From positions 1 to 54,472 of the forward strand of contig NZ_JAGQEG010000035.1 of assembly GCF_018305005.1 (NCBI RefSeq): DNA of 54,472 nucleotides, read 5' to 3'. This DNA comes from Collimonas silvisoli. GTDB lineage: Bacteria > Pseudomonadota > Gammaproteobacteria > Burkholderiales > Burkholderiaceae_D. Of this stretch, positions 81 to 54,235 are shown one piece after another. A model generated the notes under the pieces. The model did not search any database. It was given only the letters and a program-made list of their open reading frames with translations, and was not told the origin of the DNA. Positions within the stretch are counted from its first letter, which is position 1, and each line of letters begins with the position of its first letter. Position numbers and translations under genes: made by a program.

Positions 81-116
81 AAAAAACCCTCTGAACTAAT
101 CATTCAGAGGGTTTTT
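81..116 (+). terminator. rrn operon terminator
   Basis: The stem AAACCCTCTGAA pairs with TTCAGAGGGTTT across a 7-base loop, and the T run follows directly. It lies just after the 5S rRNA end. Because an A run precedes the stem, it could also serve the convergent lipase gene on the minus strand. Confidence 0.85.
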
Positions 117-164
117 GCTTTGCGCGTACGTTTTACACCGCAGCTTGTCCGGACCGGCCGATTC

Positions 165-1022
165 TTAATCAATCTTGGCATGAGAATGCGGCCTGAGTGC
201 GCTGGGAATCTCATGATTATCCAGTCCGCCAGCCGCCAGCCAACGACGGGTTTCGGCTGCCGCGCGGTCTATCAGCATGCCGCACTGGCTGTAGTCGTAA
301 GGCGAGACGTCCAGCGGACATAACGGCGCCACCACGGCTATCGCTGCCTGTGATGCCCAACGCTCCAGATCGGATACCAACTGACGCGCTACCAACAAGT
401 TGAGCGCGCTCATGGCGTGCTCAAGCGCTCCCTTGGGTTGCCGTCGCTCGGCACAACTAAAGCCGGTAGTAAGCACGATGAGGCGCGTCGCGCCAAGTCG
501 TATCGCCGTGGAGATTGGCGTATTGTTGGCCACGCCGCCATCAATCAACATGTTTCCAGCCAGGGAAACTGGTGGGAAAACACCTGGGATCGCTGTGCTC
601 GCCAGCACTGCTTCAACTGCCGGTCCGGAGGAAATAACTATCTCGTTGCCGCTGCTCATCTCAGTAGCGACAACATGTACCGGGAGATCGGCATCTTCCA
701 GCGCACGACTGCCAAAGTGTTCATAAAGAAGAGCGCGCAATTTCGCCGGATTGACCAGGTGTGTGCCTCGGGCAGCGCCAAGGATCGAAAGAATCGACCA
801 CGGCATGATCTGTTGGCGGCGGATGCCGCGCCATAAATATTCCAGGCGCATCGTGCCGGCGGTATGCGGTTGATAAGCGAAGAACACGCTGTTGATCGCG
901 CCGGCAGAGGCGCCGACCAGGAAATCCGGATGTATGCCGGAAGCGATCAGTTCTCGCAGCATGCCGGCTTCGATGGCGCCAAGACTCCCTCCACCGGCGA
1001 ATACAAATGCGGTCTTTTCCAT
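165..1022 (-). CDS. patatin-like phospholipase family protein
   Basis: This 285-residue protein belongs to the patatin/RssA-like serine hydrolases, which cleave acyl esters of lipids with a Ser-Asp dyad. The glycine-rich oxyanion loop GGGSLG is near residues 10-15, the nucleophile elbow GASAG near 37-41 (Ser39), and the DGG motif with the catalytic Asp near 161. The ATG at 1022 is chosen because the frame upstream begins with a TTG and the family motif starts at once after this Met; an AGG lies a few bases upstream. No signal peptide is seen, so a cytoplasmic or inner-membrane-associated enzyme is likely. The substrate cannot be told from sequence. It is convergent with the rRNA operon. Confidence 0.85.
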   Translation of the reverse strand: MEKTAFVFAGGGSLGAIEAGMLRELIASGIHPDFLVGASAGAINSVFFAYQPHTAGTMRLEYLWRGIRRQQIMPWSILSILGAARGTHLVNPAKLRALLYEHFGSRALEDADLPVHVVATEMSSGNEIVISSGPAVEAVLASTAIPGVFPPVSLAGNMLIDGGVANNTPISTAIRLGATRLIVLTTGFSCAERRQPKGALEHAMSALNLLVARQLVSDLERWASQAAIAVVAPLCPLDVSPYDYSQCGMLIDRAAAETRRWLAAGGLDNHEIPSALRPHSHAKID

Positions 1023-1170
1023 AGTGGCAACCTGCGAACGGCCATCGCTGGTACATGGCAATGTGTATAGCCTACCCCAGCAGGCGTCAATGCGCTAGCA
1101 GCCTGAGGTGGGAGGCGTTAGATTCAGATAAAATTGCCGAATCAATTGAAAGAGGATTCTGAAAGCGCAC

Positions 1171-1626
1171 ATGTCCGTACCGAACACACCACACGTCATT
1201 CTGGTTCCGGCAGTTGAAACGGATTTTGACGAACTCGTCGCATTACGCATAGCTGCCATGCGCGACAGCCTGGAACGCATCGGCCGGTTTGATCCGGTTC
1301 GCGCAAGAGAACGATTTCGCGCCAGCTTTTCGGCGATGTATACACGGCATGTGACGGTTGAAGGCCGGCGCGTAGGTTTTGTGGTCGTTAGACCTGCTCA
1401 GGATCAACTGCTGCTGGAGAATCTATATATTCGTCCAGGTAACCAGGGGCAGGGAATTGGGGCAGCGGTGCTTGCCCAAGTCTTTAAAGAAGCAGATGCG
1501 TTAGCCATGCCGCTACGCGTAGGTGCCCTGAGGGAAAGCGATGCCAATCGTTTCTACCAACGCAATGGTTTTGAATTTCTCGCAGAAGAGGAATGGGACC
1601 TTTACTATCTTCGCCCCAGTCGGTGA
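1171..1626 (+). CDS. GNAT family N-acetyltransferase
   Basis: This 151-residue protein has the GNAT acyl-CoA-dependent acetyltransferase fold. The acetyl-CoA pyrophosphate loop is seen as NQGQGIGAAV near residues 91-100, after the strand LLENLYIRP. The C-terminal motif B region ANRFYQRNGF is near 125-134, and its Tyr is a usual general acid in the family. The start is supported by an AGAGGA about 15 bases upstream. The substrate is unknown; small-molecule or protein N-acetylation are both possible. It stands alone, divergent from the lipase and convergent with the barstar-like gene. Confidence 0.85.
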   Translation: MSVPNTPHVILVPAVETDFDELVALRIAAMRDSLERIGRFDPVRARERFRASFSAMYTRHVTVEGRRVGFVVVRPAQDQLLLENLYIRPGNQGQGIGAAVLAQVFKEADALAMPLRVGALRESDANRFYQRNGFEFLAEEEWDLYYLRPSR

Positions 1627-1676
1627 GTTTGACGTGGCGTGGCGTCTGACGACGATCTGATTGATTAAATCTAGCT

Positions 1677-2003
1677 CTAACGCAGCGTGAGTTTTAGCGC
1701 CGGTTTTTCGCCGTAATCTTCGTAGCGCTCATTGATTGCCGCGATGCAGAATTCCAGTTCTTCGACGATTTCAGGAGCGCGCTGGCGTAGTTTTTCACTG
1801 TGCAGTATCTCGATGTTCAGCACTTCGTTTTCTTGCAGACGGAACTTGCTCATTCCATCTTCATCGCGCAGATAGCTGAGGCAGTCTATCCAGGCGCTCA
1901 TATTGCGGCCATAAAATTCGGGAAAACCGAATACCTCTGCACACTCGGTATGAAAGCTGTCCCAGTCGGTGATGATTTCGCCATTCAGGCGGGCGCTTGG
2001 CAT
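1677..2003 (-). CDS. barstar family protein (predicted ribonuclease inhibitor)
   Basis: The 108-residue product resembles barstar, the small protein that blocks barnase-type ribonucleases by covering the active site. The opening RLNGEIITDWDSFHTEC, the central FPEFYGRNMSAWIDCLS with the conserved Tyr-Gly-x-Asn, and the acidic stretch after it follow the barstar pattern. The usual family length is about 90-110 residues. A GGAGAAACC-type ribosome site precedes the ATG. No ribonuclease or toxin gene is next to it, so it may be an orphan immunity protein or protect against a nuclease encoded elsewhere. Confidence 0.8.
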   Translation of the reverse strand: MPSARLNGEIITDWDSFHTECAEVFGFPEFYGRNMSAWIDCLSYLRDEDGMSKFRLQENEVLNIEILHSEKLRQRAPEIVEELEFCIAAINERYEDYGEKPALKLTLR

Positions 2004-2079
2004 AATGGTTTCTCCTGCTTAAATTCCAGATCGTTCGCACAACTTATCATATCTGCAGCGACAATTTGCGCGATTCATT

Positions 2080-2290
2080 TCACAGTATCCAGATCTTCAG
2101 GATCAAACCGGATATCGCACACCCGGCAATCACGTGAATCACGTTCCGCTTGAAGCGGAACAGCGCTATAGCCGCGCCCAATGCGATCAATGCCGATAGC
2201 CAGTCAAAGCGGCCGTCAAAGCAGAAAAAAACAGGCTATCAGGTCCGAATATGGCTTTCACGTAGCCGATTGCACTTCTGCTTGGCTCAT
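2080..2290 (-). pseudogene. possible remnant of a chromate transporter C-terminus
   Basis: Reading the minus strand up to the TGA at 2080-2082 gives about 40 residues of membrane-like sequence: FDWLSALIALGAAIALFRFK, then a second hydrophobic stretch ending in LILKIWIL. This resembles the last two membrane segments of ChrA-type transporters. Upstream the frame is broken by stop codons near a T run at about 2222-2230, and no start with a ribosome site is seen. I read it as the tail of a decayed gene. The family assignment is from memory and is weak. Confidence 0.3.
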
Positions 2291-2452
2291 TGAAATGTCG
2301 GATTCGTATAAACATTGTTGAGACGGTGGCAATGGCCACGACCTCAAGCGCATATTAAGTATCTACGCGCATTACAGCATGTTGCGGACATAAAAAACGT
2401 CTCTTTTGCGTGGTGCGGGAGACGTGGGTTTTACACAAACTGGTTCTGCAAA

Positions 2453-2486
2453 GAAAAAAGGATTCCGATTGTGGAATCCTTTTTAA
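2453..2486. terminator. bidirectional hairpin terminator
   Basis: The stem AAAAAGGATTCC pairs with GGAATCCTTTTT around a 6-base loop. Flanking A and T runs let it work in both directions. It is 26 bases past the stop codon of the solute-binding protein gene on the minus strand, which is its most likely client. Confidence 0.8.
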
Positions 2487-2511
2487 TCCGGTGCAGGTTG
2501 GCCCTGCCGCC

Positions 2512-3327
2512 TTATTCGACAGCGCTATGCAACACGCTGTCGGGCAACGGCGCCTTGAACCAGCGTTGGGCATTGACGTTGAGCATGCCGTTTTGTTTGA
2601 TGCGGCTCAGCATGGTGTTGATCTTACTGAGCAAGGCTGTTTCGTTTTTGTTAACACCGATAAAGCAGGGAGAGTCTTTCAACACTATTTTCAGCTGGGT
2701 TGTTTCCACCTGTTCCTTGGTGAAGGCGGAAATCAAGACATTGCCCGCCGCCAGCAACTTGGATTCTCCCTGCAGATAGGATTTCACGGCCTCCGGTTCG
2801 GTGTCGAAGCGTTTGATGCTGGCTGACGCCGGTGCAATCTTGCTCAACTCACCGTCTTCGATCGACCCTTTGAGTACGGCGATGGTCTTGCCAGCCAATC
2901 CCGCAGCATTCTTGACATCGAGATCCGGTGCACCGAAGACGCCAAGATAAAACGGCGCGTAAGCCTGTGAAAAGTCGATTTGTTTCTGACGTTCCGGATT
3001 TTTACCGAGGCTGGAGACCACCAGATCGACATGCCGGTTCAACAGCGCCGGGATACGATCGCCACTAGCCAGCGGCACCATGTCCAGCTTGACGCCCAGT
3101 TCCAGCGATATCATCTTGGCGATCGATACATCAAATCCTTCCAGCGTCTTGTATTGATTTGCCGAGCCGAAAGGCGGCGTATCTTTAGGCACCGCAATGC
3201 GAATCGCGCGGCGGTTTTGCACATCTTCCAGTGCATCGGCGCGGCTTTCACGTACCGGCAGCAGGGTGCCAGCCAAGGCGATGGAATAGACAAGAATGCA
3301 TGCAAATACACCGGCGTAACGCTTCAC
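2512..3327 (-). CDS. ABC transporter substrate-binding protein, polar amino acid type
   Basis: This 271-residue periplasmic protein belongs to family 3 of bacterial solute-binding proteins, which deliver amino acids to ABC importers. A signal peptide covers about residues 1-30, with a Lys-Arg start, a hydrophobic core and cleavage near ESRA. The mature part starts with the family pattern RAIRIAVPKDTPPFG and has the lobe motifs LEGFDVSIAKMI and ERQKQIDFSQAY. The start is a GTG at 3327, with GGGAG eight bases upstream. No permease or ATPase gene is adjacent, so it is an orphan component or a sensory binding protein. The ligand cannot be called. Confidence 0.85.
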   Translation of the reverse strand: MKRYAGVFACILVYSIALAGTLLPVRESRADALEDVQNRRAIRIAVPKDTPPFGSANQYKTLEGFDVSIAKMISLELGVKLDMVPLASGDRIPALLNRHVDLVVSSLGKNPERQKQIDFSQAYAPFYLGVFGAPDLDVKNAAGLAGKTIAVLKGSIEDGELSKIAPASASIKRFDTEPEAVKSYLQGESKLLAAGNVLISAFTKEQVETTQLKIVLKDSPCFIGVNKNETALLSKINTMLSRIKQNGMLNVNAQRWFKAPLPDSVLHSAVE

Positions 3328-3602
3328 AAGAAGACTCCCAGAATTAATTGAACGAACCCATGCCGATTTTTCAATGGCTCAAGATGCTGCTGCAACGCTT
3401 GCTGCGCACAAGATTTTATGTCTGCACAGAAAGTTTGTATACGGAATAATCGGGAATTGTTTCGCGCTGTTTCTTTCCCGCAAATTGACGCGGAAATTAC
3501 CAGCATGCCGTGTGAAAAGTCATGGAAGATGCGTCAAATCTGACGTGACCCATTGTTTCTTTATCGCATCGGATTGAATCCAGATGCGAGGTTTTGAAGC
3601 GC
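3328..3602. other. intergenic, no gene seen
   Basis: About 275 bases separate the solute-binding protein start from the ssrA terminator. I see no ORF with a ribosome site, no tRNA and no clear repeat. The promoter of the minus-strand solute-binding gene must lie in its left part, but no good -35/-10 pair could be fixed by eye. Confidence 0.5.
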
Positions 3603-9502: not shown

Positions 9503-10135
9503 TTACTTGTTTGTACCAACAACTTCGATTTCAACGCGACGGTTTTTAGCGCGGCCAGCAGCGGTCTTGTTATCAGCGACCGGTTGCGACTTGCCTTTAC
9601 CTTCGGTGTAAACACGGTTAGCTTCGACACCCTTGTGTACCAGGTATGCCTTAACAGCTTCAGCACGACGAACCGACAGTTTTTGGTTGTAAGCAACCGA
9701 ACCGACCGAGTCAGTATGGCCAACAGCGATGATGACTTCCAGGTTGATTGCGCCCAGTTTCGATGTCAGGTCATCCAGTTTTGCTTTGCCTTCTGGCTTC
9801 AGGACAGCTTTGTCGAAGTCAAAGAATGCGTCAGCAGCAAAAGTAACTTTTTGCGAAACTGGAGCTGGTGCTGGAGCAACTGGTGCTGGAGCTGGTGCAA
9901 CTGGAGCTGGTGCAGCTTGAGCGATTTCGCCGTCGCAACCTGGAACCGAGTCAGCTGGTGTCCAGTAGCCGGTGTGCCAGCACAGACCGTACGGGTCACG
10001 TGCGATTACACCACGTGCATCTTGCACGTAGGCACTGTTTGGAGTGTTTGCCTGGATATCTTTGATTTCCTGCGCGGAGGCAGAGAGTGCGACGACTGCG
10101 GACGCAGCGAAGACGAGTTTTGCTAATTTATTCAT
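9503..10135 (-). CDS. ompA: OmpA family outer membrane protein
   Basis: A 210-residue OmpA-domain protein. The signal peptide MNKLAKLVFAASAVVALSAS ends near residue 21. A short N-terminal part holds two cysteines (GLCWHTGYW and VPGCDGE), which may form a disulfide. A PAPAPV repeat linker of about 20 residues follows, then the C-terminal peptidoglycan-binding domain: FFDFDKAVLKPEG, GHTDSVGSVAYNQKLS and the closing NRRVEIEV. There is no eight-strand barrel, so this is the short Burkholderiales form. A strong ribosome site GAGAGGAG precedes the ATG, which fits high expression. It tethers the outer membrane to peptidoglycan. Confidence 0.92.
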   Translation of the reverse strand: MNKLAKLVFAASAVVALSASAQEIKDIQANTPNSAYVQDARGVIARDPYGLCWHTGYWTPADSVPGCDGEIAQAAPAPVAPAPAPVAPAPAPVSQKVTFAADAFFDFDKAVLKPEGKAKLDDLTSKLGAINLEVIIAVGHTDSVGSVAYNQKLSVRRAEAVKAYLVHKGVEANRVYTEGKGKSQPVADNKTAAGRAKNRRVEIEVVGTNK

Positions 10136-10414: not shown

Positions 10415-11101
10415 TTAATTTTCTTGCACTTTTATTATGGCTCTGCGATTTGGGCTGAGGCAACTAATGAGTTTTTTACGGTTCAGTTTGTTGCTGCAGC
10501 TCAATATCGGCTCGGATGCTCCGGCACCGGCAACCTCGATTTTGTTAGTGACGCCTTTGCTCTTCAAATAACTGGCGATATTGGCGGCGCGTTGCATTGA
10601 CAATTTTTGGTTATATTTCTCTGAGCCAAGGCGATCGGTATGGCCGGTTACTAATATATAGCCCGCGCCAGCGCAGCCGGTTAATTTAGCAATCACCTGC
10701 TGCTCAATACGCTGCTTGGCAGCATTCGTCAGTGTTGCTTTCCCGAAACTGAAATTCTGGTCGCTCGTCAGCGTTACGCTGCCATTGCACTGTGTGCTGA
10801 CAGTTGCCGGGGCGATTTCATTGCCTGCAATCGTCGGGTTTGCGACCAGAGCCGGTGCGCTGGCTTTCATTACCGGCGCCACCAGGGCGCCGTCGCAACC
10901 GGTAACGGCATCGTTCTGCTCCCAATAACCTGAGCGCCAGCACAAACCATCCTGGCTGCGCACAATCGGACCGCGTCCGTCTTGCAAATAAGCACTTTTT
11001 TCAGGGTTGGCCTGAACATCGGTGGTTTGGGCAAAACCGGAATTGGACGCAGAGCCGAGAGCCGAGCCTAATAACAGGCAGAGCGCAATTGAATAACGCA
11101 T
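10415..11101 (-). CDS. OmpA family protein, second paralogue
   Basis: This 228-residue paralogue of the neighbouring ompA product has the same plan. A signal peptide ends near FAQ (about residue 25). An N-terminal region with GLCWRSGYW and VTGCDGA matches the first copy, and the C-terminal OmpA domain has GHTDRLGSEKYNQKLS and SPNRRAIIKV. The Pro-Ala linker is replaced by an Ala/Val/Pro stretch, and extra cysteines occur in the OmpA domain (STQC, TGCAGAG, LSCSNK, ISCLSP). AGGAAA precedes the start by about 8 bases. The tandem arrangement and shared cysteine motifs point to a gene duplication followed by divergence. Confidence 0.88.
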   Translation of the reverse strand: MRYSIALCLLLGSALGSASNSGFAQTTDVQANPEKSAYLQDGRGPIVRSQDGLCWRSGYWEQNDAVTGCDGALVAPVMKASAPALVANPTIAGNEIAPATVSTQCNGSVTLTSDQNFSFGKATLTNAAKQRIEQQVIAKLTGCAGAGYILVTGHTDRLGSEKYNQKLSMQRAANIASYLKSKGVTNKIEVAGAGASEPILSCSNKLNRKKLISCLSPNRRAIIKVQEN

Positions 11102-42774: not shown

Positions 42775-43111
42775 ATGAATGAATTGCATCAAACGGTCCC
42801 GGTTAAAGCACCGATCGATGGGGCTGAACAACTCTTGCGCAGCAAGTTCGGCTCAGCACCTGACAAGCGATTCTGGCAGGCCATAGGGCGCCAGATCGAT
42901 CACTCCGGTCTGCCTCGCGGCGAGTTTGCCGGCGCGACCTTTGTGTCCGGCCATGCCAAAGCGCGCGCCGGGCGAAAAGTAGCATTGATCGGCGGGGCAA
43001 ACCTCGGGCGGGAATCGGTTCCCAGTACGGTCCTTTAGAGGCTACGGCCAAATAATGCTTTGCCGACATCCGCTTGGCTGTCCTTAGTTATTCCCCAATT
43101 TTTTCCATGTG
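41946..43111. repeat. recurring TTTCCATGTG(G) motif
   Basis: TTTCCATGTGG is at 41946-41956 and 42046-42056 on the plus strand and at 42133-42143 on the minus strand. TTTCCATGTG is at 43102-43111, 67 bases before the adhesin ATG. The copy at 42045-42060 is extended to ATTTCC-ATGT-GGAAAT, an imperfect dyad. Weaker relatives are TTTCCATTTG at 41776 and CCATGGAAAC near 41730. Dyad form and multiple copies fit a transcription factor site, which is inference. Confidence 0.55.
42775..43038 (+). CDS. hypothetical protein, 87 residues
   Basis: I do not recognise this protein. The ATG is preceded by GGGTGAGAAG, an acceptable ribosome site. The product is basic and mostly polar, with segments PDKRFWQAIGRQIDHSGLPR and RAGRKVALIGGANLGRES. 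There is no signal peptide or membrane segment. Its base composition is more GC-rich than the spacer before it and closer to normal genes, which supports coding. It may be a fragment of a larger gene, or chance. It ends 139 bases before the adhesin gene. Confidence 0.4.
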   Translation: MNELHQTVPVKAPIDGAEQLLRSKFGSAPDKRFWQAIGRQIDHSGLPRGEFAGATFVSGHAKARAGRKVALIGGANLGRESVPSTVL

Positions 43112-43116
43112 ATCTT

Positions 43117-43150
43117 GCTTGCGCAATCGGTCTGATTCCAAGTCGCAAGC
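43117..43150 (+). promoter_or_regulatory. inverted repeat in the adhesin leader
   Basis: GCTTGCG at 43117-43123 pairs with CGCAAGC at 43144-43150 across 20 bases, ending 27 bases before the adhesin ATG. It could be an operator or an mRNA structure that limits translation. A TTTCCATGTG copy ends 5 bases before it. Confidence 0.45.
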
Positions 43151-43177
43151 CTCATTACATTTTGAATAGAGTCATTC

Positions 43178-46100
43178 ATGAATAAGATTTACCGCACCGT
43201 CTACAGTGAAGTACTTGGCGCCTGGGTCGCTGTCTCCGAAAATACGGCGGCGCGCGGTAAGCGTAGTAGCTCAAAAGTGGCCGCCGCAATAGTGGCTGCC
43301 GGAGCCATTGCGCCGTTGTTCTTGTTTGCGCCGAATTATGTGTTTGCACAAACGACGCCAGAAGCGGCGTGTACTTCAGGCAGTGGCGGCACCATGTACC
43401 TTGCCGATGCTACTTGCGTTAACTACGTTAACAACACCAGAATTTACCTTAACAGTTTGTCGACATCCACATCGACGACAGTAGGCAGTTTGTCGACGAG
43501 CCTGAGCACCACCAATAGCAACGTAACATCACTGTCGATCTCTACTTCGACCGGTATCAGCACGTCACGAGTGGCGGAATCCTCTTTGTCCACCGGGTTG
43601 AGTACGACTAACAGCAATGTAACGTCACTGTCGACTTCAACTTCCACCGGCATCACATCGCTGTCGACCGGCCTGAGCACGACAAACAGCAACGTGACAT
43701 CGTTGTCTACCGGTTTGAGCACAACGAACAGTAACGTGACTTCGTTGTCGACGGGCTTGAGCACAACCAACAGTAACGTGAGTTCGTTGTCCTCTGGCCT
43801 GAGCTCCGCCAACAGCAGCGTTTCGTCGCTCTCGACCTCTACTTCGACTGGCATCAGCACATCGCGGGTGGCGGAAGCCTCCTTGTCGACTGGCCTAAGC
43901 ACCACCAACAGCAATGTGACTTCGCTGTCCACTGGACTGAGCTCCGCCAACAGCAGCGTGTCTTCGCTGTCGACCGGTCTGAGCACCACCAACAGCAATG
44001 TGGCATCGTTGTCGACCTCGGCTTCAACCGGCATCACATCGCTGTCGACCGGCCTGAGCACGACCAACAGCAACGTGACATCTCTCTCAACAGGTCTGAG
44101 CACAACCAACAGCAGTGTGGCATCGTTGTCGACCTCGGTGTCGACTGGCATCACTTCGTTGTCGACCGGCCTGAGCACCACCAATAGCAACGTGACATCG
44201 TTGTCGGCTTCGGCTTCAACCGGCATCACATCGCTGTCGACCGGTCTGAGCACCACCAACAGCAACGTAACATCTCTCTCAACAGGTCTGAGCACAACCA
44301 ACAGCAACGTGACTTCGCTCTCGACTTCTGCTTCGACTGGTCTTAGTGCGACGAATAGCAACGTGACTTCGTTGTCCACCGGATTGAGCACCACCAACAG
44401 TAACGTGTCGTCGTTGTCGACCTCGGCATCGACGGGCATCACCTCGCTGTCAACCGGTCTGAACACGACCAACAGCAATGTGACATCGTTGTCGACCTCG
44501 GCATCGACGGGCATCACCTCGCTGTCAACCGGTCTGAGCACGACCAACAGCAATGTGACATCGTTGTCGACCTCGGCATCGACTGGCATCACTTCGCTGT
44601 CGACCGGTTTGAGCACCACCAATAGCAATGTGACCTCGCTGTCGGCTTCGACTTCGACGGGCATCAGCACATCAAGAGTGGCGGAAACTTCCTTGTCCAC
44701 CGGTTTGAGCACAACCAACAGCAACGTGGCATCGTTGTCGACATCGGCATCGACGGGTATTACTTCGCTGTCGACTGGTTTGAGCACGACCAACAGCAAC
44801 GTATCGTCGCTGTCGACTTCGGCATCGACCGGCCTGAGCACAGCCAATAGCAACGTGACCTCGTTGTCGACCTCGGCATCGACTGGCATCGCCTCGCTAT
44901 CGACCGGTCTGAGCACCACCAACAGCAATGTGGCATCGTTGTCGACCTCGACGTCGACTGGCATCACTTCGCTGTCGACCGGCTTGAGCACGACCAATAG
45001 TAACGTGAGCTCGCTGTCGACCTCGGCATCGACTGGCATCACATCGCTGTCGACCGGCCTGAGCACGACAAACAGCAACGTGAACTCGCTGTCGACCTCG
45101 GCATCGACTGGCATCACATCGCTGTCGACCGGCTTGAGCACAACCAACAGCAACGTAACATCTCTCTCAGCAGGTCTGAGCACTACCAACAGCAACGTGA
45201 CATCGTTATCGACCTCGGCATCAACTGGCATCACATCACTGTCGACCGGCCTGAGCACGACAAACAGCAACGTGACCTCGTTGTCCACCGGTTTGAGCAC
45301 AACCAACAGCAACGTGACTTCGCTGTCCACCGGCCTGAGCTCCGTCAACAGCAGCGTGTCTTCGCTATCGACCTCAACCTCGACGGGTCTGAGCACGACC
45401 AACAGCAACGTGGCATCGTTGTCGACTTCGACTTCCACCGGCATCACTTCACTGTCAACCGGTCTGAGCACGACCAACAGCAATGTGACATCGTTGTCGA
45501 CCTCGGCATCGACCGGTATTACTTCGCTGTCGACCGGCCTGAGCAGCACCAATAGCAACATGACCTCGTTGTCGACTTCAACTTCGGCAGGCATCAGCAC
45601 ATCAAGAGTGGCGGAAACCTCCTTGTCGACAGGTCTGAGCACAACCAACAGTAATGTATCGTCGCTGTCGACTTCAACCTCGACAGGCTTGAGCACGGCT
45701 AGCAGCAACGTGACTTCGCTGTCCACCGGACTGAGCTCCGCCAACAGCAGCGTGACTTCGCTCTCGACTTCTGCTTCGACTGGTCTTAGTGCGACGAATA
45801 GCAACGTGACTTCGTTGTCCACCGGATTGAGCACCACCAACAGTAACGTGTCGTCGTTGTCGACTTCAACCTCGACGGGTTTGAGTGCGGCCAACAGCAA
45901 CGTGACCTCATTGTCGACATCGACTTCGACCGGTATCACTTCGCTGTCGACCGGCTTGAGTACCACCAACAGCAACGTAACATCTCTCTCAACAGGTCTG
46001 AGCACGACCAACAGCAACGTGTCGTCGTTGTCAACCTCGGCGTCGACTGGCATCACATCGCTGTCGACTGGCTTGAGCACTACCAACAGCAATGTGACAT

Positions 46101-49100
46101 TGTTGTCGACCTCGGCTTCTACCGGCATTACTTCGCTGTCGACCGGCCTGAGCACAACCAATAGCAACGTGAGCTCGCTGTCGACCGGCTTGAGCACGAC
46201 CAACAGCAGCGTGACCTCGTTGTCGACCTCGGCTTCCACCGGCATTACTTCGCTGTCGACCGGTCTGAGCACCGCCAACAGCAACGTGACATCGTTGTCG
46301 ACCTCGGCATCGACGGGCATCACCTCGCTGTCGACTGGCCTGAGCACGACCAACAGCAACGTAACATCTCTCTCAACAGGTCTGAGCACGACCAATAGCA
46401 ACGTGACCTCGTTGTCGGCTTCGGCATCGACCGGCATCACTTCGCTGTCGACCGGCTTGAGCACGACCAACAGCAGCGTGACCTCGTTGTCGACCTCGGC
46501 TTCCACCGGCATTACTTCGCTGTCGACCGGTCTGAGCACAGCCAACAGCAACGTGACTTCGCTGTCGACCTCGGCATCGACTGGCATCACCTCGCTGTCG
46601 ACCGGCTTGAGTACCACCAACAGCAACCTAACATCTCTCTCAACAGGTCTGAGCACCACCAACAGCAACGTGTCGTCGTTGTCGACCTCGGCATCGACGG
46701 GCATCACTTCGTTGTCGACTGGTCTGAGCACGACCAACAGCAACGTGACCTCGTTGTCGACCTCGGCTTCCACCGGCATTACTTCGCTGTCGACCGGTCT
46801 GAGCACAGCCAACAGCAACGTGACTTCGCTGTCGACCTCGGCATCGACTGGCATCACCTCGCTGTCGACCGGCTTGAGTACCACCAACAGCAACGTAACA
46901 TCTCTCTCAACAGGTCTGAGCACCACCAACAGCAACGTGTCGTCGTTGTCGACCTCGGCATCGACTGGCATCACTTCGCTGTCGACTGGCCTGAGCACGA
47001 CCAACAGCAACGTGACTTCGCTCTCGACTTCTGCTTCGACTGGTCTTAGTGCGACGAATAGCAACGTGACTTCGTTGTCCACCGGATTGAGCACCACCAA
47101 TAGCAATGTGACCTCGCTGTCGGCTTCGACTTCGACGGGCATCAGCACATCAAGAGTGGCGGAAACCTCCTTGTCCACCGGTCTGAGCACAACCAATAGC
47201 AACGTGGCATCGTTGTCGACCTCGGCATCGACTGGCATCAGTACCAACGCTAGCAATATTGGTTCATTGTCTACCGGCCTGAGCACGACCAATAGCAACG
47301 TGACCTCGTTGTCGGCTTCAGCATCGACTGGCATCACCTCGCTGTCGACCGGATTGAGCACCACCAACAGTAACGTGACATCGTTGTCGACCTCGGCGTC
47401 GACCGGCATCACCTCGCTGTCGACCGGCCTGAGCACAGCCAACAGCAACGTGACCTCGTTGTCGACCTCGGCATCGACGAGCATCACCTCGCTGTCGACC
47501 GGCCTGAGCACGACCAACAGCAACGTGTCGTCGTTGTCGACCTCGGCGTCGACCGGCATCACTTCGGTGTCGACCGGCTTGAGCACCACCAACAGCAATG
47601 TGACATCGTTGTCGACATCTACCTCAACGGGTTTGAGCACGACCAACAGTAATGTGTCGTCGTTATCTACATCCACTTCTACGGGCTTGAGCACAGCAAC
47701 GAGCGGTATCAGCTCGCTGTCTACCGGGTTGAGTTCGACCAACAGCAATGTGACATCGTTGTCAACGTCGGCCTCGACTGGCATCAGCACCAACGCCAGC
47801 AACATTGGCTCGTTGTCGACCGGCTTGAGCACGACCAATAGCAGCGTTTCATCGTTATCGACTTCAGCTTCGACCGGTCTGAGCACTGCCAATAGCAATG
47901 TCACGTCGCTGTCGACTTCAGCTTCAACTGGTATCAGTACCAACGCCAGCAACCTCGGCTCGTTGTCCACCGGTTTGAGCACGACCAACAGCAACGTGGC
48001 ATCGCTGTCTACCGGTCTGAGTACAACCAACAGCAGCGTTTCGTCGTTATCGAGTTCGACGTCAACCGGCCTGAGCATTGCCAGCAGCAATGTGGCTTCA
48101 TTGTCGTCCGGTCTGAGCACGACCAATAGCAGTGTGTCGTCGTTGTCGACTTCCACCTCGACCGGCATCAGCACCAACGCCAGCAATATTGGTTCATTGT
48201 CGACCGGCCTGAGCACGACCAACAGCAGCGTGACTTCGTTGTCGACTTCAACCTCGACTGGTTTGAGCACGACCAACAGCAACGTGGCATCGCTGTCGAC
48301 CGGTCTGAGTACAACAAACAGTAGCGTTTCGTCGTTATCGAGTTCGACGTCAACCGGTCTGAGCACTGCCAGCAGCAATGTGACTTCATTGTCGTCCGGT
48401 CTGAGCACGACCAACAGCAGCGTGACTTCGTTGTCGACGTCGGCATCGACCGGCATCACCTCGCTATCGACCGGCCTGAGCACCACCAACAGCAGTGTGT
48501 CGTCGTTGTCGACTTCCACCTCGACCGGCATCAGCACCAACGCCAGCAATATTGGTTCATTGTCGACTGGCCTGAGCACCACCAACAGCAACGTGGTATC
48601 GCTGTCTACCGGCCTGAGTACGAGCAACAGCAGCGTGACTTCGTTATCGACGTCGGCATCGACCGGCATCACCTCGCTATCGACCGGCCTGAGCACCACC
48701 AACAGCAGTGTGTCGTCGTTGTCGACGTCAACTTCGACCGGCATCAGCACCAATGCCAGCAACATCGGCTCGTTGTCGACTGGCCTGAGCACGACCAATA
48801 GCAGCGTGACGTCGTTATCGACATCGGCTTCGACCGGTATTACATCGTTGTCCACCGGTTTGAGCACGACCAACAGCAACGTGGCATCGCTGTCGACCGG
48901 TCTGAGTACAACAAACAGTAGCGTTTCGTCGTTATCGAGTTCGACATCGACCGGTCTGAGCACTGCTAATAGCAATGTCACATCGCTGTCGACTTCAACT
49001 TCGACCGGCATCAGTACCAATGCCAGCAATATCGACTCGTTGTCGACCGGCTTGAGCACAACGAATAGCAACGTATCGTCGCTGTCGACCTCAGCTTCGA

Positions 49101-52100
49101 CCGGCATCAGCACCAACGCCAGCAATATCGGCTCGTTGTCTACCGGCCTGAGTACGACCAACAGCAGCGTGACTTCGTTGTCGACGTCGGCATCGACTGG
49201 CATCACCTCGCTGTCAACCGGTCTGAGCACTGCCAGCAGCAATGTGACTTCATTGTCTACCGGCCTGAGCACGACCAACAGCAGCGTTTCGTCATTATCG
49301 GCTTCGACATCGACCGGTCTGAGCACTGCTAATAGCAATGTCACATCGCTGTCGACGTCGACCTCAACCGGCATCACTTCGCTGTCAACCGGTCTGAGCA
49401 CTGCCAGCAGCAATGTGACTTCATTGTCGTCCGGCCTGAGCACGACCAACAGCAGCGTGTCATCATTGTCGACTTCAACTTCGACCGGCATTAGCACCAA
49501 TGCCAGCAACATCAGCTCGTTGTCGACTGGCTTGAGCACAACGAATAGCAGTGTCGATTCGCTGTCGACATCGACCTCAACCGGCATCACGTCGTTGTCA
49601 ACCGGTCTGAGCACGACCAATAGCAATGTGTCGTCGCTGTCGACATCGGCCTCGACCGGCATCACATCGTTGTCAAGCGGCCTGAGCACTGCCAGCAGCA
49701 ATGTGACTTCATTGTCGTCCGGCCTGAGTACGACCAACAGCAGCGTTTCGTCATTATCGACTTCGACATCGACCGGTCTGAGTACGACGAACAGTAATGT
49801 ATCGTCGCTGTCGACATCGACATCGACCGGCATCAGCACCAACGCCAGCAACATCAGCTCATTGTCGACTGGCTTGAGTACGACGAATAGCAGTGTCGAT
49901 TCGCTGTCGACGTCGACCTCAACCGGCGTCACTTCGCTGTCAACCGGTCTGAGCACCACCAACAGCAGCGTGTCGTCGCTGTCGACCTCAGCTTCGACTG
50001 GCATCAGCACCAACGCCAGCAACATTGGTTCGTTGTCGACTGGTTTGAGCACGGCCAACAGCAGCGTTTCGTCATTGTCAACATCGACATCGACCGGCAT
50101 CAGCACCAACGCCAGTAACATCGGCTTGTTGTCTACCGGCCTGAGTACGACCAACAGCAATGTATCGTCGCTGTCGACTTCCACTTCGACCGGTATCAGC
50201 ACCAACGCCAGCAACATTGGTTCGTTGTCGACTGGTTTGAGCACGGCCAACAGCAGCGTTTCGTCATTATCGACTTCGACATCGACCGGTCTGAGTACAA
50301 CGAACAGTAATGTATCGTCGCTGTCGACTTCGACTTCGACCGGTATCAGCACCAACACCAGTAACATCGGTTCGTTGTCGACTGGCTTGAGTACGACGAA
50401 TAGCAGTGTCGATTCGCTGTCGACGTCGACCTCAACCGGCATCACATCGTTGTCAACCGGTCTTAGCACCACCAACAGTAATGTGTCGTCGCTGTCGACT
50501 TCGACATCGACCGGCATCAGTACCAACGCCAGCAACATCGGTTCGTTGTCGACTGGTTTGAGCACGACGAATAGCAGTGTCGATTCGCTGTCGACATCGA
50601 CCTCAACCGGCGTTACTTCGCTGTCAACCGGTCTGAGCACAACCAACAGCAGCGTGTCGTCGCTGTCGACCTCAGCTTCGACTGGCATCAGTACCAACGC
50701 CAGCAACATCGGTTCGTTGTCTACTGGCCTGAGCACGACCAACAGCAGTGTGTCGTCGTTGTCGACTGGTCTGAGCACGACCAATAGCAATGTATCGTCG
50801 CTGTCGACCTCGACTTCGACTGGCATCAGTACCAACGCCAGCAATATCGGCTCGTTGTCTACCGGCCTGAGTACGACCAACAGCAGCGTGACTTCGTTGT
50901 CGACGTCGGCATCGACTGGCATCACCTCGCTGTCGAGCGGCCTGAGCACAACGAATAGCAATGTCGATTCGCTGTCGACATCGACCTCAACCGGCATCAC
51001 TTCGCTGTCGACCGGTCTGAGCACGACCAATAGCAATGTATCGTCGCTGTCGACCTCAGCTTCGACTGGCATCAGTACCAACACCAGCAACATCGGCTCG
51101 TTGTCGACTGGTCTGAGTACGACCAATAGCAATGTATCGTCGCTGTCGACCTCGACTTCGACTGGCATCAGCACCAACGCCAGCAATATTAGCTCGTTGT
51201 CGACTGGCTTGAGCACAACGAATAGCAATGTCGATTCGCTGTCGACGTCGACCTCAACCGGCGTCACTTCGCTGTCAACCGGTCTGAGCACAACCAACAG
51301 CAGCGTGACTTCGTTGTCGACGTCGGCATCGACTGGCATCACCTCGCTGTCCACCGGTCTGAGCACTGCTAATAGCAATGTCACATCGCTGTCGACTTCC
51401 ACTTCGACTGGCATCAGCACCAATGCCAGCAATATCGGCTCGTTGTCGACTGGTTTGAGCACGACCAACAGCAATGTATCGTCACTGTCGACCTCAGCTT
51501 CGACTGGCATCAGTACCAACGCTAGCAATCTTGGTTCATTGTCTACCGGCCTGAGCACTACCAACAGCAGTGTTTCGTCGCTGTCGACCTCGACTTCGAC
51601 TGGCATCAGCACCAACGCCAGCAACATCAGCTCGTTGTCGACCGGCTTGAGCACAACGAATAGCAATGTCGATTCACTGTCGACGTCGACCTCAACCGGC
51701 GTCACTTCGCTGTCAACCGGTCTGAGCACAACCAACAGCAGCATGTCATCATTGTCGACTTCAACCTCGACTGGCCTGAGCACGACCAATAGCAATGTAT
51801 CGTCGCTGTCGACATCCACCTCGACTGGCATCAGCACCAATGCCAGCAACATTGGTTCGTTGTCGACTGGTTTGAGCACGACCAACAGCAGCGTGTCATC
51901 GCTGTCGACCGGCTTGAGCACAACGAATAGCAATGTCAATTCGCTGTCGACGTCGACCTCAACCGGCATCACTTCGCTGTCGACTGGCCTGAGCACCACC
52001 AACAGCAGCGTGTCGTCGCTGTCGACCTCAGCTTCGACTGGCATCAGCACCAACGCCAGCAATATCGGCTCGTTGTCGACTGGTCTGAGTACGACCAACA

Positions 52101-54235
52101 GCAATGTATCGTCGCTGTCGACCTCGACTTCGACCGGCATAAGCACCAACGCCAGTAATATCGGCTCGTTGTCGACCGGCTTGAGCACGACCAACAGCAG
52201 TGTGTCATCGTTGTCGACCTCAGCTTCGACTGGCATCAGCACCAACGCCAGCAATATCGGCTCGTTGTCGACTGGTCTGAGCACAGCGAATAGCAATGTG
52301 GATTCCTTGTCGACATCGACATCGACTGGCATTACTTCGCTGTCTACTGGTCTGAGCACAACCAACAGCAATGTGTCGTCGCTGTCGACTTCAACCTCAA
52401 CTGGCATCACGTCGTTGTCTACCGGTTTGAGCACAACCAACAGTAACGTGACTTCGTTGTCGACATCGGCATCGACGGGCATCACCTCGCTGTCAACCGG
52501 TCTGAGCACAACCAACAGCAGCGTGTCGTCGTTGTCGACATCGGCTTCGACCGGAATTACTTCGCTGTCGACCGGTTTGAGCACGACTAACAGCAACGTG
52601 ACATCGTTATCGACATCGACTTCGACCGGAATCACTTCGTTGTCTACCGGCCTGAGCGCGACCAACAGCAACGTGTCGTCGCTGTCGACTTCAACTTCAA
52701 CCGGCATCATCTCACTGTCAACCGGCCTGAGCACGACAACCAGCAACATCGGTTCCTTGTCGACCGGTCTGAGCTCTACCAATAGCAACGTTTCCTCGTT
52801 GTCGAGCAGCTTGCAGGGCTCCGGAGTTGCCAACTACTTGAAGGCGGATGGCAAGCTGGACGGTTCGGATAATGCGGTAGTCAGCAAGGGTTCGAATTCG
52901 GTATCCATCGGCGCGAATTCGATCAATGAAACAGTGGCTGGCACGGCACGTAACAATGTGGTGTCGGTGGGTTCGGCTAACCGCGAGCGGCAGATCATCA
53001 ACGTCGCAGCCGGTACGCAGAATACCGATGCAGTCAACCTCAGCCAGCTGAATTCGCTGTCGACCGCCACTTCATCCAGTCTGTCGTCTGTCAACAGCAG
53101 CGTAAATTCTCTGTCGACTTCCACTTCAACAGGCATCGGTTCGTTATCGACCGGTCTGTCGAGCGCCAATAGCAGCGTGAGTTCTCTGTCGAGCGGGCTA
53201 TCGAGCAATACTTCGAACGTCAGTTCCTTGTCGACTGGCTTGTCTACGACCAATGGCAACGTGAGTTCATTGTCGACCTCCACCTCGACCGGCATCGCTT
53301 CGTTGTCAACGGGCTTGTCGTCCCTATCGACCGGCTTGAGCCAGGTGACTTCGCTCTCAACCGGCCTGCGCGGCATCGCCAACGGTACGGCTTCGTTGTC
53401 GACGTCGCTGACGGCGCTGGTGGATGCATCCACTAACGCGGCGGCCAACGGCGCCACGCTCGGCGGCACTACGATCGGCGGCTCCAATGGCAATGGCACG
53501 GTGCAGACCCGCGGCACCACCGGCACCGCTGTTGTTAACGTGGTGGCGGCGACCTGCAGCAGCGTCAATGGGGTGGACGCTAGCGCCTCCGGTTTGTGCG
53601 CGCAAGCGACCAAGGATGGCGCAACGGCTTTGGGTTCGAACGCACAAGCGACCGATACCAACACCACGGCAGTCGGCTTCCGTGCCCTGGCATCACAAGC
53701 AGGCTCGGTGGCGATTGGCTACAACGCCAGGGCGACAGGCGATCCGACGGTAGCGATTGGTAACAACGCGCTGGCCTCGGGCAATGACGCGGTGGCGATG
53801 GGAGCCGGGGCGCAAGCTACGGCGAGCCGCTCGGTGGCGCTGGGAGCATATTCGGTGGCGGACCAGGCCAATACGGTGTCGGTGGGTTCTGCCGGCAGCG
53901 AACGCCGGATCACCAATGTGGCGCCTGGGGTCAACCTGACTGATGCGGTCAATGTCCAGCAATTGAACAATGTGCAGAACCAGATTGGCGACATCAAACG
54001 TATCGCTTACTCGGGTATCGCGATGAGCATGGCGTTGTCGGGAGCGGTGATGCCGCCTTTGGAAGCGGGCGAAAAAGGTGTAGGCGTAGGCATGGGTTCT
54101 TACCAGGGTTACGGCGCATTGGCTTTGCAATTCAAATCCATCAGCAAGACTGGCAATAGCGCCTGGGGCGCCGGGGTAAGCACTACAGGCAACAACACCG
54201 GCTTCAGCGTTGGTTACGGCTTCAAGTGGAAATAA
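43178..54235 (+). CDS. giant trimeric autotransporter adhesin (YadA-like)
   Basis: A 3685-residue type Vc secreted surface fibre. The N-terminus MNKIYRTVYSEVLGAWVAVS is an ESPR-type extended signal, with the hydrophobic core at about 35-57 and likely cleavage near VFAQ. A short Cys-containing segment (Cys65, Cys80) is followed by a stalk of about 3,120 Ser/Thr/Leu/Asn-rich residues (91-3212). Next come a small head-like part (SKGSNSVSIGANS) and a neck (VSVGSANRERQIINVAAGTQ), then a second short stalk. A YadA head with 14-residue turns (DGATALGSNAQATDTNTTAV) carries Cys3460 and Cys3474 just before it. A second neck (VSVGSAGSERRITNVAPG) and the C-terminal membrane anchor end in GYGFKWK. Homotrimers self-insert into the outer membrane. 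Adhesion to a host, fungus or other cells is expected, but the ligand is unknown. Confidence 0.95.
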   Translation: MNKIYRTVYSEVLGAWVAVSENTAARGKRSSSKVAAAIVAAGAIAPLFLFAPNYVFAQTTPEAACTSGSGGTMYLADATCVNYVNNTRIYLNSLSTSTSTTVGSLSTSLSTTNSNVTSLSISTSTGISTSRVAESSLSTGLSTTNSNVTSLSTSTSTGITSLSTGLSTTNSNVTSLSTGLSTTNSNVTSLSTGLSTTNSNVSSLSSGLSSANSSVSSLSTSTSTGISTSRVAEASLSTGLSTTNSNVTSLSTGLSSANSSVSSLSTGLSTTNSNVASLSTSASTGITSLSTGLSTTNSNVTSLSTGLSTTNSSVASLSTSVSTGITSLSTGLSTTNSNVTSLSASASTGITSLSTGLSTTNSNVTSLSTGLSTTNSNVTSLSTSASTGLSATNSNVTSLSTGLSTTNSNVSSLSTSASTGITSLSTGLNTTNSNVTSLSTSASTGITSLSTGLSTTNSNVTSLSTSASTGITSLSTGLSTTNSNVTSLSASTSTGISTSRVAETSLSTGLSTTNSNVASLSTSASTGITSLSTGLSTTNSNVSSLSTSASTGLSTANSNVTSLSTSASTGIASLSTGLSTTNSNVASLSTSTSTGITSLSTGLSTTNSNVSSLSTSASTGITSLSTGLSTTNSNVNSLSTSASTGITSLSTGLSTTNSNVTSLSAGLSTTNSNVTSLSTSASTGITSLSTGLSTTNSNVTSLSTGLSTTNSNVTSLSTGLSSVNSSVSSLSTSTSTGLSTTNSNVASLSTSTSTGITSLSTGLSTTNSNVTSLSTSASTGITSLSTGLSSTNSNMTSLSTSTSAGISTSRVAETSLSTGLSTTNSNVSSLSTSTSTGLSTASSNVTSLSTGLSSANSSVTSLSTSASTGLSATNSNVTSLSTGLSTTNSNVSSLSTSTSTGLSAANSNVTSLSTSTSTGITSLSTGLSTTNSNVTSLSTGLSTTNSNVSSLSTSASTGITSLSTGLSTTNSNVTLLSTSASTGITSLSTGLSTTNSNVSSLSTGLSTTNSSVTSLSTSASTGITSLSTGLSTANSNVTSLSTSASTGITSLSTGLSTTNSNVTSLSTGLSTTNSNVTSLSASASTGITSLSTGLSTTNSSVTSLSTSASTGITSLSTGLSTANSNVTSLSTSASTGITSLSTGLSTTNSNLTSLSTGLSTTNSNVSSLSTSASTGITSLSTGLSTTNSNVTSLSTSASTGITSLSTGLSTANSNVTSLSTSASTGITSLSTGLSTTNSNVTSLSTGLSTTNSNVSSLSTSASTGITSLSTGLSTTNSNVTSLSTSASTGLSATNSNVTSLSTGLSTTNSNVTSLSASTSTGISTSRVAETSLSTGLSTTNSNVASLSTSASTGISTNASNIGSLSTGLSTTNSNVTSLSASASTGITSLSTGLSTTNSNVTSLSTSASTGITSLSTGLSTANSNVTSLSTSASTSITSLSTGLSTTNSNVSSLSTSASTGITSVSTGLSTTNSNVTSLSTSTSTGLSTTNSNVSSLSTSTSTGLSTATSGISSLSTGLSSTNSNVTSLSTSASTGISTNASNIGSLSTGLSTTNSSVSSLSTSASTGLSTANSNVTSLSTSASTGISTNASNLGSLSTGLSTTNSNVASLSTGLSTTNSSVSSLSSSTSTGLSIASSNVASLSSGLSTTNSSVSSLSTSTSTGISTNASNIGSLSTGLSTTNSSVTSLSTSTSTGLSTTNSNVASLSTGLSTTNSSVSSLSSSTSTGLSTASSNVTSLSSGLSTTNSSVTSLSTSASTGITSLSTGLSTTNSSVSSLSTSTSTGISTNASNIGSLSTGLSTTNSNVVSLSTGLSTSNSSVTSLSTSASTGITSLSTGLSTTNSSVSSLSTSTSTGISTNASNIGSLSTGLSTTNSSVTSLSTSASTGITSLSTGLSTTNSNVASLSTGLSTTNSSVSSLSSSTSTGLSTANSNVTSLSTSTSTGISTNASNIDSLSTGLSTTNSNVSSLSTSASTGISTNASNIGSLSTGLSTTNSSVTSLSTSASTGITSLSTGLSTASSNVTSLSTGLSTTNSSVSSLSASTSTGLSTANSNVTSLSTSTSTGITSLSTGLSTASSNVTSLSSGLSTTNSSVSSLSTSTSTGISTNASNISSLSTGLSTTNSSVDSLSTSTSTGITSLSTGLSTTNSNVSSLSTSASTGITSLSSGLSTASSNVTSLSSGLSTTNSSVSSLSTSTSTGLSTTNSNVSSLSTSTSTGISTNASNISSLSTGLSTTNSSVDSLSTSTSTGVTSLSTGLSTTNSSVSSLSTSASTGISTNASNIGSLSTGLSTANSSVSSLSTSTSTGISTNASNIGLLSTGLSTTNSNVSSLSTSTSTGISTNASNIGSLSTGLSTANSSVSSLSTSTSTGLSTTNSNVSSLSTSTSTGISTNTSNIGSLSTGLSTTNSSVDSLSTSTSTGITSLSTGLSTTNSNVSSLSTSTSTGISTNASNIGSLSTGLSTTNSSVDSLSTSTSTGVTSLSTGLSTTNSSVSSLSTSASTGISTNASNIGSLSTGLSTTNSSVSSLSTGLSTTNSNVSSLSTSTSTGISTNASNIGSLSTGLSTTNSSVTSLSTSASTGITSLSSGLSTTNSNVDSLSTSTSTGITSLSTGLSTTNSNVSSLSTSASTGISTNTSNIGSLSTGLSTTNSNVSSLSTSTSTGISTNASNISSLSTGLSTTNSNVDSLSTSTSTGVTSLSTGLSTTNSSVTSLSTSASTGITSLSTGLSTANSNVTSLSTSTSTGISTNASNIGSLSTGLSTTNSNVSSLSTSASTGISTNASNLGSLSTGLSTTNSSVSSLSTSTSTGISTNASNISSLSTGLSTTNSNVDSLSTSTSTGVTSLSTGLSTTNSSMSSLSTSTSTGLSTTNSNVSSLSTSTSTGISTNASNIGSLSTGLSTTNSSVSSLSTGLSTTNSNVNSLSTSTSTGITSLSTGLSTTNSSVSSLSTSASTGISTNASNIGSLSTGLSTTNSNVSSLSTSTSTGISTNASNIGSLSTGLSTTNSSVSSLSTSASTGISTNASNIGSLSTGLSTANSNVDSLSTSTSTGITSLSTGLSTTNSNVSSLSTSTSTGITSLSTGLSTTNSNVTSLSTSASTGITSLSTGLSTTNSSVSSLSTSASTGITSLSTGLSTTNSNVTSLSTSTSTGITSLSTGLSATNSNVSSLSTSTSTGIISLSTGLSTTTSNIGSLSTGLSSTNSNVSSLSSSLQGSGVANYLKADGKLDGSDNAVVSKGSNSVSIGANSINETVAGTARNNVVSVGSANRERQIINVAAGTQNTDAVNLSQLNSLSTATSSSLSSVNSSVNSLSTSTSTGIGSLSTGLSSANSSVSSLSSGLSSNTSNVSSLSTGLSTTNGNVSSLSTSTSTGIASLSTGLSSLSTGLSQVTSLSTGLRGIANGTASLSTSLTALVDASTNAAANGATLGGTTIGGSNGNGTVQTRGTTGTAVVNVVAATCSSVNGVDASASGLCAQATKDGATALGSNAQATDTNTTAVGFRALASQAGSVAIGYNARATGDPTVAIGNNALASGNDAVAMGAGAQATASRSVALGAYSVADQANTVSVGSAGSERRITNVAPGVNLTDAVNVQQLNNVQNQIGDIKRIAYSGIAMSMALSGAVMPPLEAGEKGVGVGMGSYQGYGALALQFKSISKTGNSAWGAGVSTTGNNTGFSVGYGFKWK
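43448..52813 (+). repeat. coding repeat array of the adhesin stalk
   Basis: About 9.4 kb built from units of 33, 42 and 54 bases, encoding 11 residues (SLSTSASTGIT type), 14 residues (SLSTGLSTTNSNVT type) and 18 residues (SLSTSTSTGISTNASNIG type). All are multiples of three, so gain or loss of units keeps the frame. Units vary mostly at silent positions. The array contains no Tyr, His or Gln codons. GTCGAC recurs in most units because Leu-Ser-Thr is written TTG/CTG-TCG-ACN. Confidence 0.95.
46234..47034 (+). repeat. three tandem copies of a 267-base higher-order unit
   Basis: Blocks starting at TTCCACCGGCATTACTTCGC at 46234, 46501 and 46768 are spaced by exactly 267 bases, or 89 codons. Each contains the unit order 11-14-11-14-14-11-14. 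The second and third copies are nearly identical, including the rare spelling ACATCTCTCTCAACAGGTCT, so their duplication looks recent. Confidence 0.8.

Follow-up and report, generated by a model that had tools for sequence, protein, structure and literature searches.

What does a bacterium gain from a surface protein that is, over most of its length, a monotonous array of serine and threonine? The question is raised by one gene of Collimonas silvisoli (NCBI RefSeq assembly GCF_018305005.1, contig NZ_JAGQEG010000035.1, positions 1 to 54,472); this stretch of 54,472 nucleotides is referred to here as the window. A first-pass annotation, made from the letters alone, had placed a giant open reading frame (ORF) near its end, and the start and stop which it assigned were confirmed to the base (Table 1), none of the 3,685 codons being an internal stop. 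To judge from its sequence the product is a trimeric autotransporter adhesin (TAA; type Vc) of the SLST-repeat kind, and it probably serves as an extreme spacer, with a coiled-coil stalk of approximately 450 nm that carries only a small cap. The anatomy of the protein, the grammar of its units, the conservation of those units at the protein level and the presence of two kinds of tip at one locus are direct observations.

The ESPR extended signal peptide, the necks and the YadA anchor expected by the annotation were all recovered. The anchor scores 28.1 bits against a Pfam cut-off of 22.7 on the full-length protein, and the necks, read from the sequence as DAVNLSQL (residues 3284-3291) and DAVNVQQL (3589-3596), are both matched by PF05662 (YadA_stalk) when C-terminal pieces are scanned alone; one of these matches (3272-3312) takes in the first neck and runs into the beginning of a second, short SLST stalk. 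ESPR and anchor are found on the full-length protein, while the head (PF05658, YadA_head) and stalk models match its C-terminal pieces and neither is listed for the full-length protein (Pfam, E up to 1). A YadA head had also been annotated and is present, matching BpaC (7o23, residues 3465-3610, 3.5e-28) and the C-terminal head of BoaA (3s6l, residues 3448-3605, 6.8e-22) in a PDB sequence search in which BpaC, BoaA, SadA and YadA are the relatives of the protein. Its placement had to be revised: the head lies at the membrane end, and the distal tip holds only a cysteine-containing module. For residues 58-140 Pfam gives no match at E up to 1, and the stalk units begin at residue 93, an arrangement distinct from the YadA-like "lollipop" in which a distal head is carried on a stalk. 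Within the pieces scanned, YadA_stalk is matched only beside the necks and not in the main stalk. Matches of the latter to Nucleoprot-TPR, CENP-F, HMMR, Cbp1, SMC and others (Pfam/NCBIfam) were set aside as coiled-coil or low-complexity resemblance rather than homology.

The main stalk (3,114 residues, 93-3206) accounts for 84.5% of the protein, as against the 85% first estimated, and 99.3% of it is indeed Ser, Thr, Leu, Asn, Gly, Val, Ile or Ala; Ser plus Thr make up about 59%, and Asp, Glu, Lys and Arg together only 19 residues. It is written in units that begin with SLS (230 starts), the commonest being SLSTSASTGIT and SLSTGLSTTNSNVT. Successive starts lie 14 residues apart in 117 of 229 cases, 11 apart in 54 and 18 apart in 48; among the remaining ten, three (25, 25 and 32) are sums of these lengths, and seven occur where the stalk begins or after its end. 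Of all spacings, 224/229 have the form 7a+11b, as do 204/206, 225/230, 235/236, 241/242, 203/210 and 202/204 in six relatives and 7/7, 41/41 and 119/122 at three further Collimonas loci. At seven loci in other genera, S[LVI]ST spacings fit in 352/354 cases, including runs of pure 7-residue units; spacings over 40 were dropped from this count, and four further loci yielded none. From residue 118 to residue 3206 the rule is unbroken over 215 spacings, which corresponds to 3.559 residues per turn, and the longest such runs in G008, G013 and G003 measure 3,347, 3,168 and 3,063 residues.

Comparison of same-length units within the gene gave ratios of nonsynonymous to synonymous change (dN/dS) of 0.082, 0.079 and 0.193, and the other 16 rows of this comparison gave 0.042-0.115, with at most 1,500 random unit pairs sampled per row. 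From these low values we infer that the protein sequence of the units has been held while their codons differ. Between relatives, the share of stalk DNA 45-mers in common is 0.00-0.01, and the C-terminal 270 residues are 77-98% identical. A faster turnover of DNA in the stalk than elsewhere is not supported, for C-terminal DNA 30-mers are also rarely shared (0.00-0.09). What is kept among relatives is the length and register of the stalk, and we claim no unusual speed of change.

Matches were obtained in 17 of the 40 genomes searched (its own included), representing 5 of 26 genera. Over the N-terminal 96 residues, identity is 91% to C. humicola, 85% to Collimonas sp. OK242 and 49-64% to Polaromonas, Dechloromonas and Azonexaceae. 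The locus lies downstream of genes for a histone-deacetylase-like protein and a GTPase (recognized by Pfam here and by sequence in the relatives), and six relatives carry at this position a gene of 3,431-3,998 aa. Five of these (G003, 3,634 aa; G005, 3,964; G006, 3,998; G008, 3,898; G012, 3,431) come from genomes of one or two contigs each, so the large size is no accident of the present draft. YadA_anchor is matched in 13 of 15 Collimonas genomes, up to 14 times in one, and adhesin frames in the genus reach 4,232 aa (G013 C11). The present draft yields a single YadA_anchor match, perhaps through broken repeats or losses.

The tip module proper is 35 residues long; the alignment (A2, 13 sequences) extends it to Leu94, and 13 of these 37 positions are invariant, including both cysteines and the motif VNY-NNTR. 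It has no Pfam match, and the tip profile found no PDB match. In all 12 tips compared, a truncated one from a metagenome-assembled genome (MAG) being omitted, the residue three places before Leu94 is Leu or Val, with Thr at -7, Val or Ile at -10 and Cys at -14. The register of the stalk therefore runs on into the tip, and Cys80 would face the core if the tip is helical. A disulfide-clamped cap is accordingly a plausible role for the two invariant cysteines.

At the same locus in G006 and G012 a YadA head replaces the tip (PF05658, 7.6e-22 and 6.2e-18). The C-terminus of G006 is 98% identical to that of G013, and that of G012 95% identical to that of G003, where both G013 and G003 carry the cysteine tip; the adjoining GTPase gene agrees with this pairing (98.3 and 99.3%, respectively). 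By parsimony on these pairwise groupings, the tip appears to have changed at least twice under a common leader and ESPR. Genome contig searches located the tip also in Polaromonas, Dechloromonas, Azonexaceae and one Burkholderiales MAG, and a search of viral contigs and plasmids gave no match. Across 399 genomes of the order it occurs at E<=0.001 in at least three, two of them Collimonas (its own included) and one marginal (8.7e-4); at most 19 candidates were scored per genome, which makes this a lower bound. In the MAG (L036, 10001-10336 and 11504-11713) the tip sits on an ORF of 111 aa without SLST repeats, and VAWRG is repeated in tandem over a short stretch where the contig ends; the assembly is probably broken.

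The first-pass annotation supposed a coiled coil in estimating the length of the stalk, and this fits the residue pattern. It does not fit structure prediction, the check that the annotation itself had named: two AlphaFold2 (AF2) runs, on monomers and with alignments as thin as 9 and 12 rows, both gave strands. In all seven stalks hydrophobic periodicity peaks at 100-102 degrees, versus 180 in the beta-roll head of the same protein. With a 300-residue piece of the stalk, 13 PDB chains match at E up to 10; first among them are reovirus sigma-1 (5.4e-4), M protein and gp26, proteins that contain coiled coils. An 18-residue unit equals a 14-residue unit plus four or an 11-residue unit plus seven, and coiled coils tolerate insertions and deletions of 4 and 7 residues. 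Leu, Ile, Val, Met or Phe fill 75, 67 and 58% of the core positions in 14-, 11- and 18-mers against 0.1, 0.2 and 1.1% elsewhere; this contrast is tempered by the derivation of the core positions from the pattern itself. Other results also count against a helical fibre. Because the units are copies, their lengths do not count as independent events, and chance alone would let 15 of the 37 lengths between 4 and 40 satisfy the 7a+11b rule. The longest unbroken runs of G005 (2,418 residues), G012 (2,279) and G006 (1,564), three of the seven genes, are much shorter than the stalk, and our own stalk has a second Fourier peak near 158 degrees (3.3 versus 4.45). The composition of the stalk is unfavourable to helix, with a mean penalty of 0.538 kcal/mol per residue versus 0.449 for the anchor coil. 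Ser and Thr alternate by position, as suits strands, with Ser at odd and Thr or Leu at even positions of the units; Thr, Val and Ile favour strands. The AF2 model of the C-terminal 606 residues has regular strands in 3080-3189, the last 110 or so residues of the main stalk (predicted local distance difference test score, pLDDT, approximately 70-85), and yet renders the neck/anchor coil helical; in the same model the head is formed of strands and the second short stalk is unstructured (pLDDT below 50). The N-terminal piece (residues 58-287) likewise shows strands, at a mean pLDDT of 41.7, where the model is uninformative.

Were the stalk a beta structure, whether solenoid or stacked strands, the fibre would be much shorter and thicker, and we consider this unlikely. 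In a published study, more than 40% of random perfect repeats came out of AF2 as beta-solenoids, mostly at pLDDT >=70, and its authors call these unrealistic (PMC11795689); this bias weakens the strand result. So does the outcome of Foldseek, which found no PDB match of the whole C-terminal model at E<=0.001; the anchors of Hia (2gr7) and AtaA (9vnj) are among its matches only at E 0.05-0.29. A beta stalk must also accommodate unit lengths (7, 11, 14 and 18) that differ by the very 4 and 7 residues a coiled coil accepts, runs in Dechloromonas and Polaromonas whose odd 7-residue units flip strand parity, and a strongest hydrophobic periodicity of 100-102 degrees. We therefore judge a coiled coil considerably more probable than a beta stalk. 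It is improbable, more so than strands, that the stalk is largely unfolded and that a coat of O-linked sugars on a mucin-like brush sets the distance. The content of Ser plus Thr is suited to such a brush, and O-glycosylation of repeats of this sort has been suggested for BCAM2418 of B. cenocepacia in the available part of that report (PMC7142374), but the strict 3-4/3-4-4 placement of hydrophobics across 3,089 residues is nothing that a random brush would require. Pfam finds no glycosyltransferase families among the 27 other window ORFs scanned; the rest of the genome, where such enzymes may lie, was not searched for them.

The exact length of the gene is provisional, being that of a draft in 241 contigs. 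The locus in the relatives holds two adhesin genes (G008) or three, designated T1, T2 and T3; T3 of G003 (L068) and T2 of G006 (L071) are each split across two frames, perhaps through decay or phase variation. The T1 ending is AGVDFKLW in six of six relatives, whereas our copy, with its T1 tip, ends in the T2-type FSVGYGFKWK; over the last 20 columns its mean identity is 0.85 to T2, 0.55 to T1 and 0.52 to T3, and the C-terminal region before the anchor does not separate T1 from T2. An insertion sequence lies 110 bases past the stop codon, where the contig ends. Its reverse translation resembles the end of an IS3-type transposase. Another contig starts with what by eye resembles the opposite end of an element of this kind, followed by the gene that flanks the far side of the cluster in G013, and BLAST found no mutual match between the two ends. 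The simplest reading of these sequences is that a deletion fused T1 to T2 and removed T3. It is rather unlikely, though less so than a beta stalk, that the assembler collapsed neighbouring adhesin genes, in which case the union of T1 tip and T2 anchor and the exact length of the array would be unreal. The fragmented assembly, an anchor of the neighbouring gene's type unlike that of all six relatives, and a contig that ends inside a multi-copy element would be explained in this way. Exact DNA repeats within the gene, however, reach 150 but not 175 bases, the expected leftovers (a T1 anchor and a T2 N-terminal domain) were found nowhere else in the genome, and the genes in genomes of one or two contigs are equally long.

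If the stalk is helical, the following picture emerges. Export in this family proceeds through Sec, led by the ESPR, and a C-terminal trimeric barrel lets out the three chains. The membrane-proximal YadA-like head and neck would seat the fibre, and the roughly 3,100 residues of SLST units would form one nearly straight, parallel trimeric coiled coil. A unit of 14 residues would be two heptads, one of 11 a hendecad and one of 18 a heptad plus a hendecad, so that any order should keep the Leu/Ile/Val/Thr core in register, and rearrangement, lengthening or fusion of the array should therefore leave the fibre intact. The small cap would close the far end, its disulfide clamp preventing a weakly helical tip from fraying, and the tip would act as a cassette, exchanged for a YadA head in the two relatives. 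It is from the residue pattern that we infer helicity and length, and the clamp and any binding are likewise proposals. The first estimate of some 460 nm holds arithmetically for a helix, 3,089 residues at 0.148 nm each giving 457 nm; with the G008 run included, fibres free of register breaks could reach approximately 0.45-0.5 micrometre.

Table 1. Features of the adhesin gene and its surroundings (coordinates are those of the window)
Feature	Coordinates	Strand	Basis
Decayed DUF4019 gene remnant	42844..43056	+	Alignment, frames; counterpart intact upstream of head-type alleles in G006 and G012
Leader (5') containing the conserved RNA hairpin	43077..43177	+	Match to model R1, 110.5 bits
Whole adhesin gene	43178..54235	+	ORF of 3,685 aa, ATG to TAA
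ESPR extended signal peptide, residues 1-48	43178..43321	+	PF13018, 7.3e-19
Distal tip module, residues 58-92, Cys65 and Cys80	43349..43453	+	Alignment A2
Ser/Thr stalk, residues 93-3206, units of 11/14/18 residues	43454..52795	+	
Short YadA-type segment and first neck, residues 3207-3292	52796..53053	+	Matches to 4usx/2yo0/2yo3; start of PF05662 YadA_stalk, 8.2e-20
Second, short SLST stalk, residues 3293-3415	53054..53422	+	Sequence reading
Membrane-proximal YadA-type head and second neck, residues 3416-3610	53423..54007	+	PF05658, 6.4e-21, 5 stretches
YadA membrane anchor, residues 3631-3684, T2-type sequence	54068..54229	+	PF03895, 2.1e-6
End of multi-copy insertion sequence, contig break	54346..54472	+	105 nt matched 11 times in genome, own place included

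Upstream of the start codon lies a leader that folds as one hairpin and for which no Rfam family match was found; it is itself among the sequences from which model R1 was built. In all 27 places listed, its 31-nt core element begins 72 nt ahead of the start codon; up to 8 mismatches were allowed, and several of the places are the same gene counted twice. In alignment A6, 3 of 16 pairs are changed on both sides; 49 of 500 shuffles reach three pairs, and none reaches the six such cells of the alignment or its covariation score. Alignment A7, which was fitted to the leader model, has 6 of 16 pairs changed on both sides, a number reached by 0 of 500 shuffles. The model finds 18 places, spread over 13 of the 15 genomes of Collimonas, and in every case an ESPR match follows immediately. 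Thirteen are strong, standing before T1 in those seven genomes for which the locus was read, and five are weak and precede T2-type genes, which were not used in building the model. Outside the genus a single weak match (G471), with no adhesin start after it, was taken as chance. The hairpin may control the translation or the stability of these very long adhesin mRNAs.

In G006 the DUF4019 gene that precedes the head-type allele is matched by PF13211 (1.4e-21), and the remnant at our locus is not; the presence of the remnant suggests that this locus once had the head-type layout. The AT-rich gap upstream of the adhesin contains three copies of the palindrome TTTCCATGTGGAAA (up to 3 mismatches; positions 41946, 42046 and 42130), the only ones on the plus strand of the window, and it is possible that they form a regulator site. 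On the minus strand an ORF of 3,129 aa (43444-52833) spans the entire stalk and has a counterpart of 3,184 aa in the C. humicola relative. We rejected it as a gene, because that frame is stop-free in five of five randomly recoded versions and is an artefact of composition. Two adjacent OmpA-family genes (9503-10135 and 10415-11101, minus strand) lie approximately 32 kb upstream of the adhesin.

The trimeric autotransporter family and the SLST type of repeat are already known. BoaA and BoaB of Burkholderia are likewise TAAs, and their serine-rich SLST repeats differ in number and/or arrangement from strain to strain; in the available text and tables BoaA has 1,535-1,766 aa and carries head repeats in two sets, of which one (208-362) is distal (PMC2955633). 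The Collimonas protein differs in having no distal head and a far longer array. BCAM2418 resembles it in its Ser/Thr-rich repeats of variable size that retain the SLST signature, a comparison of descriptions rather than sequences, and the available part of that report mentions neither a tip nor a rule of unit length (PMC7142374). In the accessible portion of its description AtaA of Acinetobacter Tol 5 is a giant TAA of a non-pathogen with 3,630 aa and a measured fibre of 225 nm, and has globular parts at the tip and near the base, its distal globular end being unlike the Collimonas protein (PMC4910087). With a similar chain length, its fibre is about half as long as that predicted here. BadA of Bartonella is also very long (3,082 aa, approximately 240 nm), and is described in the available text as "beads-on-a-string" (PMC7247746), where the Collimonas protein has one uninterrupted array. 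The neck, the YadA-type head and adjoining stalk segments match SadA (2yo0, 2yo1, 2yo3) and BpaC (7o23) by sequence, and the solved chains of these contain no SLST array of the Collimonas length. The shorter fibre of AtaA is explained by its composition, much of the protein being other than simple stalk. Literature search listings returned no publication on the Collimonas protein, and it is on these listings that we call it undescribed.

Collimonas is known for life on fungi, and a long tether to fungal hyphae, minerals or neighbouring cells is a natural guess at what such a fibre might be for. The genus is also associated with minerals, and, in a published study, three neighbouring autotransporter adhesins of C. 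pratensis PMB3(1) (NKI72712/14/15) were among the genes most induced by biotite (log2 change 8.75, 7.7 and 5.94 against BCP), although no firm attachment to biotite was seen (PMC12542777). We tried to equate these genes with the present cluster by means of their distance to PilY1, and found no simple fit between approximately 121-178 kb and 53-64 accession numbers (PMC12542777); the distances were computed by hand to the nearest of 2-4 PilY1 matches in each of six genomes with PilY1 and cluster on one contig. They could be this cluster or another.

New here are a layout that is headless and bears a swappable cysteine tip, the 7/11 rule held over more than 3,000 residues, the apparent fusion of T1 and T2, and the leader hairpin. 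A bolder statement, which we regard as possible but doubtful, is that these proteins constitute a headless class of TAAs with a disulfide-clamped, exchangeable cap, may be among nature's longest uninterrupted trimeric coiled coils, and follow a freely recombinable 7/11 code that lets neighbouring adhesin genes fuse in register. The conflict between residue pattern and AF2 makes the stalk a clean case on which to test how structure prediction handles low-complexity repeats. Two kinds of tip occur at one locus, and the protein sets the spacer apart from the binding function. If the stalk is helical, it would provide a simple 7/11 code for fibres of nearly any length from near-uncharged Ser/Thr units, and the Collimonas genes would form a natural series that keeps its total length and register although the units differ.

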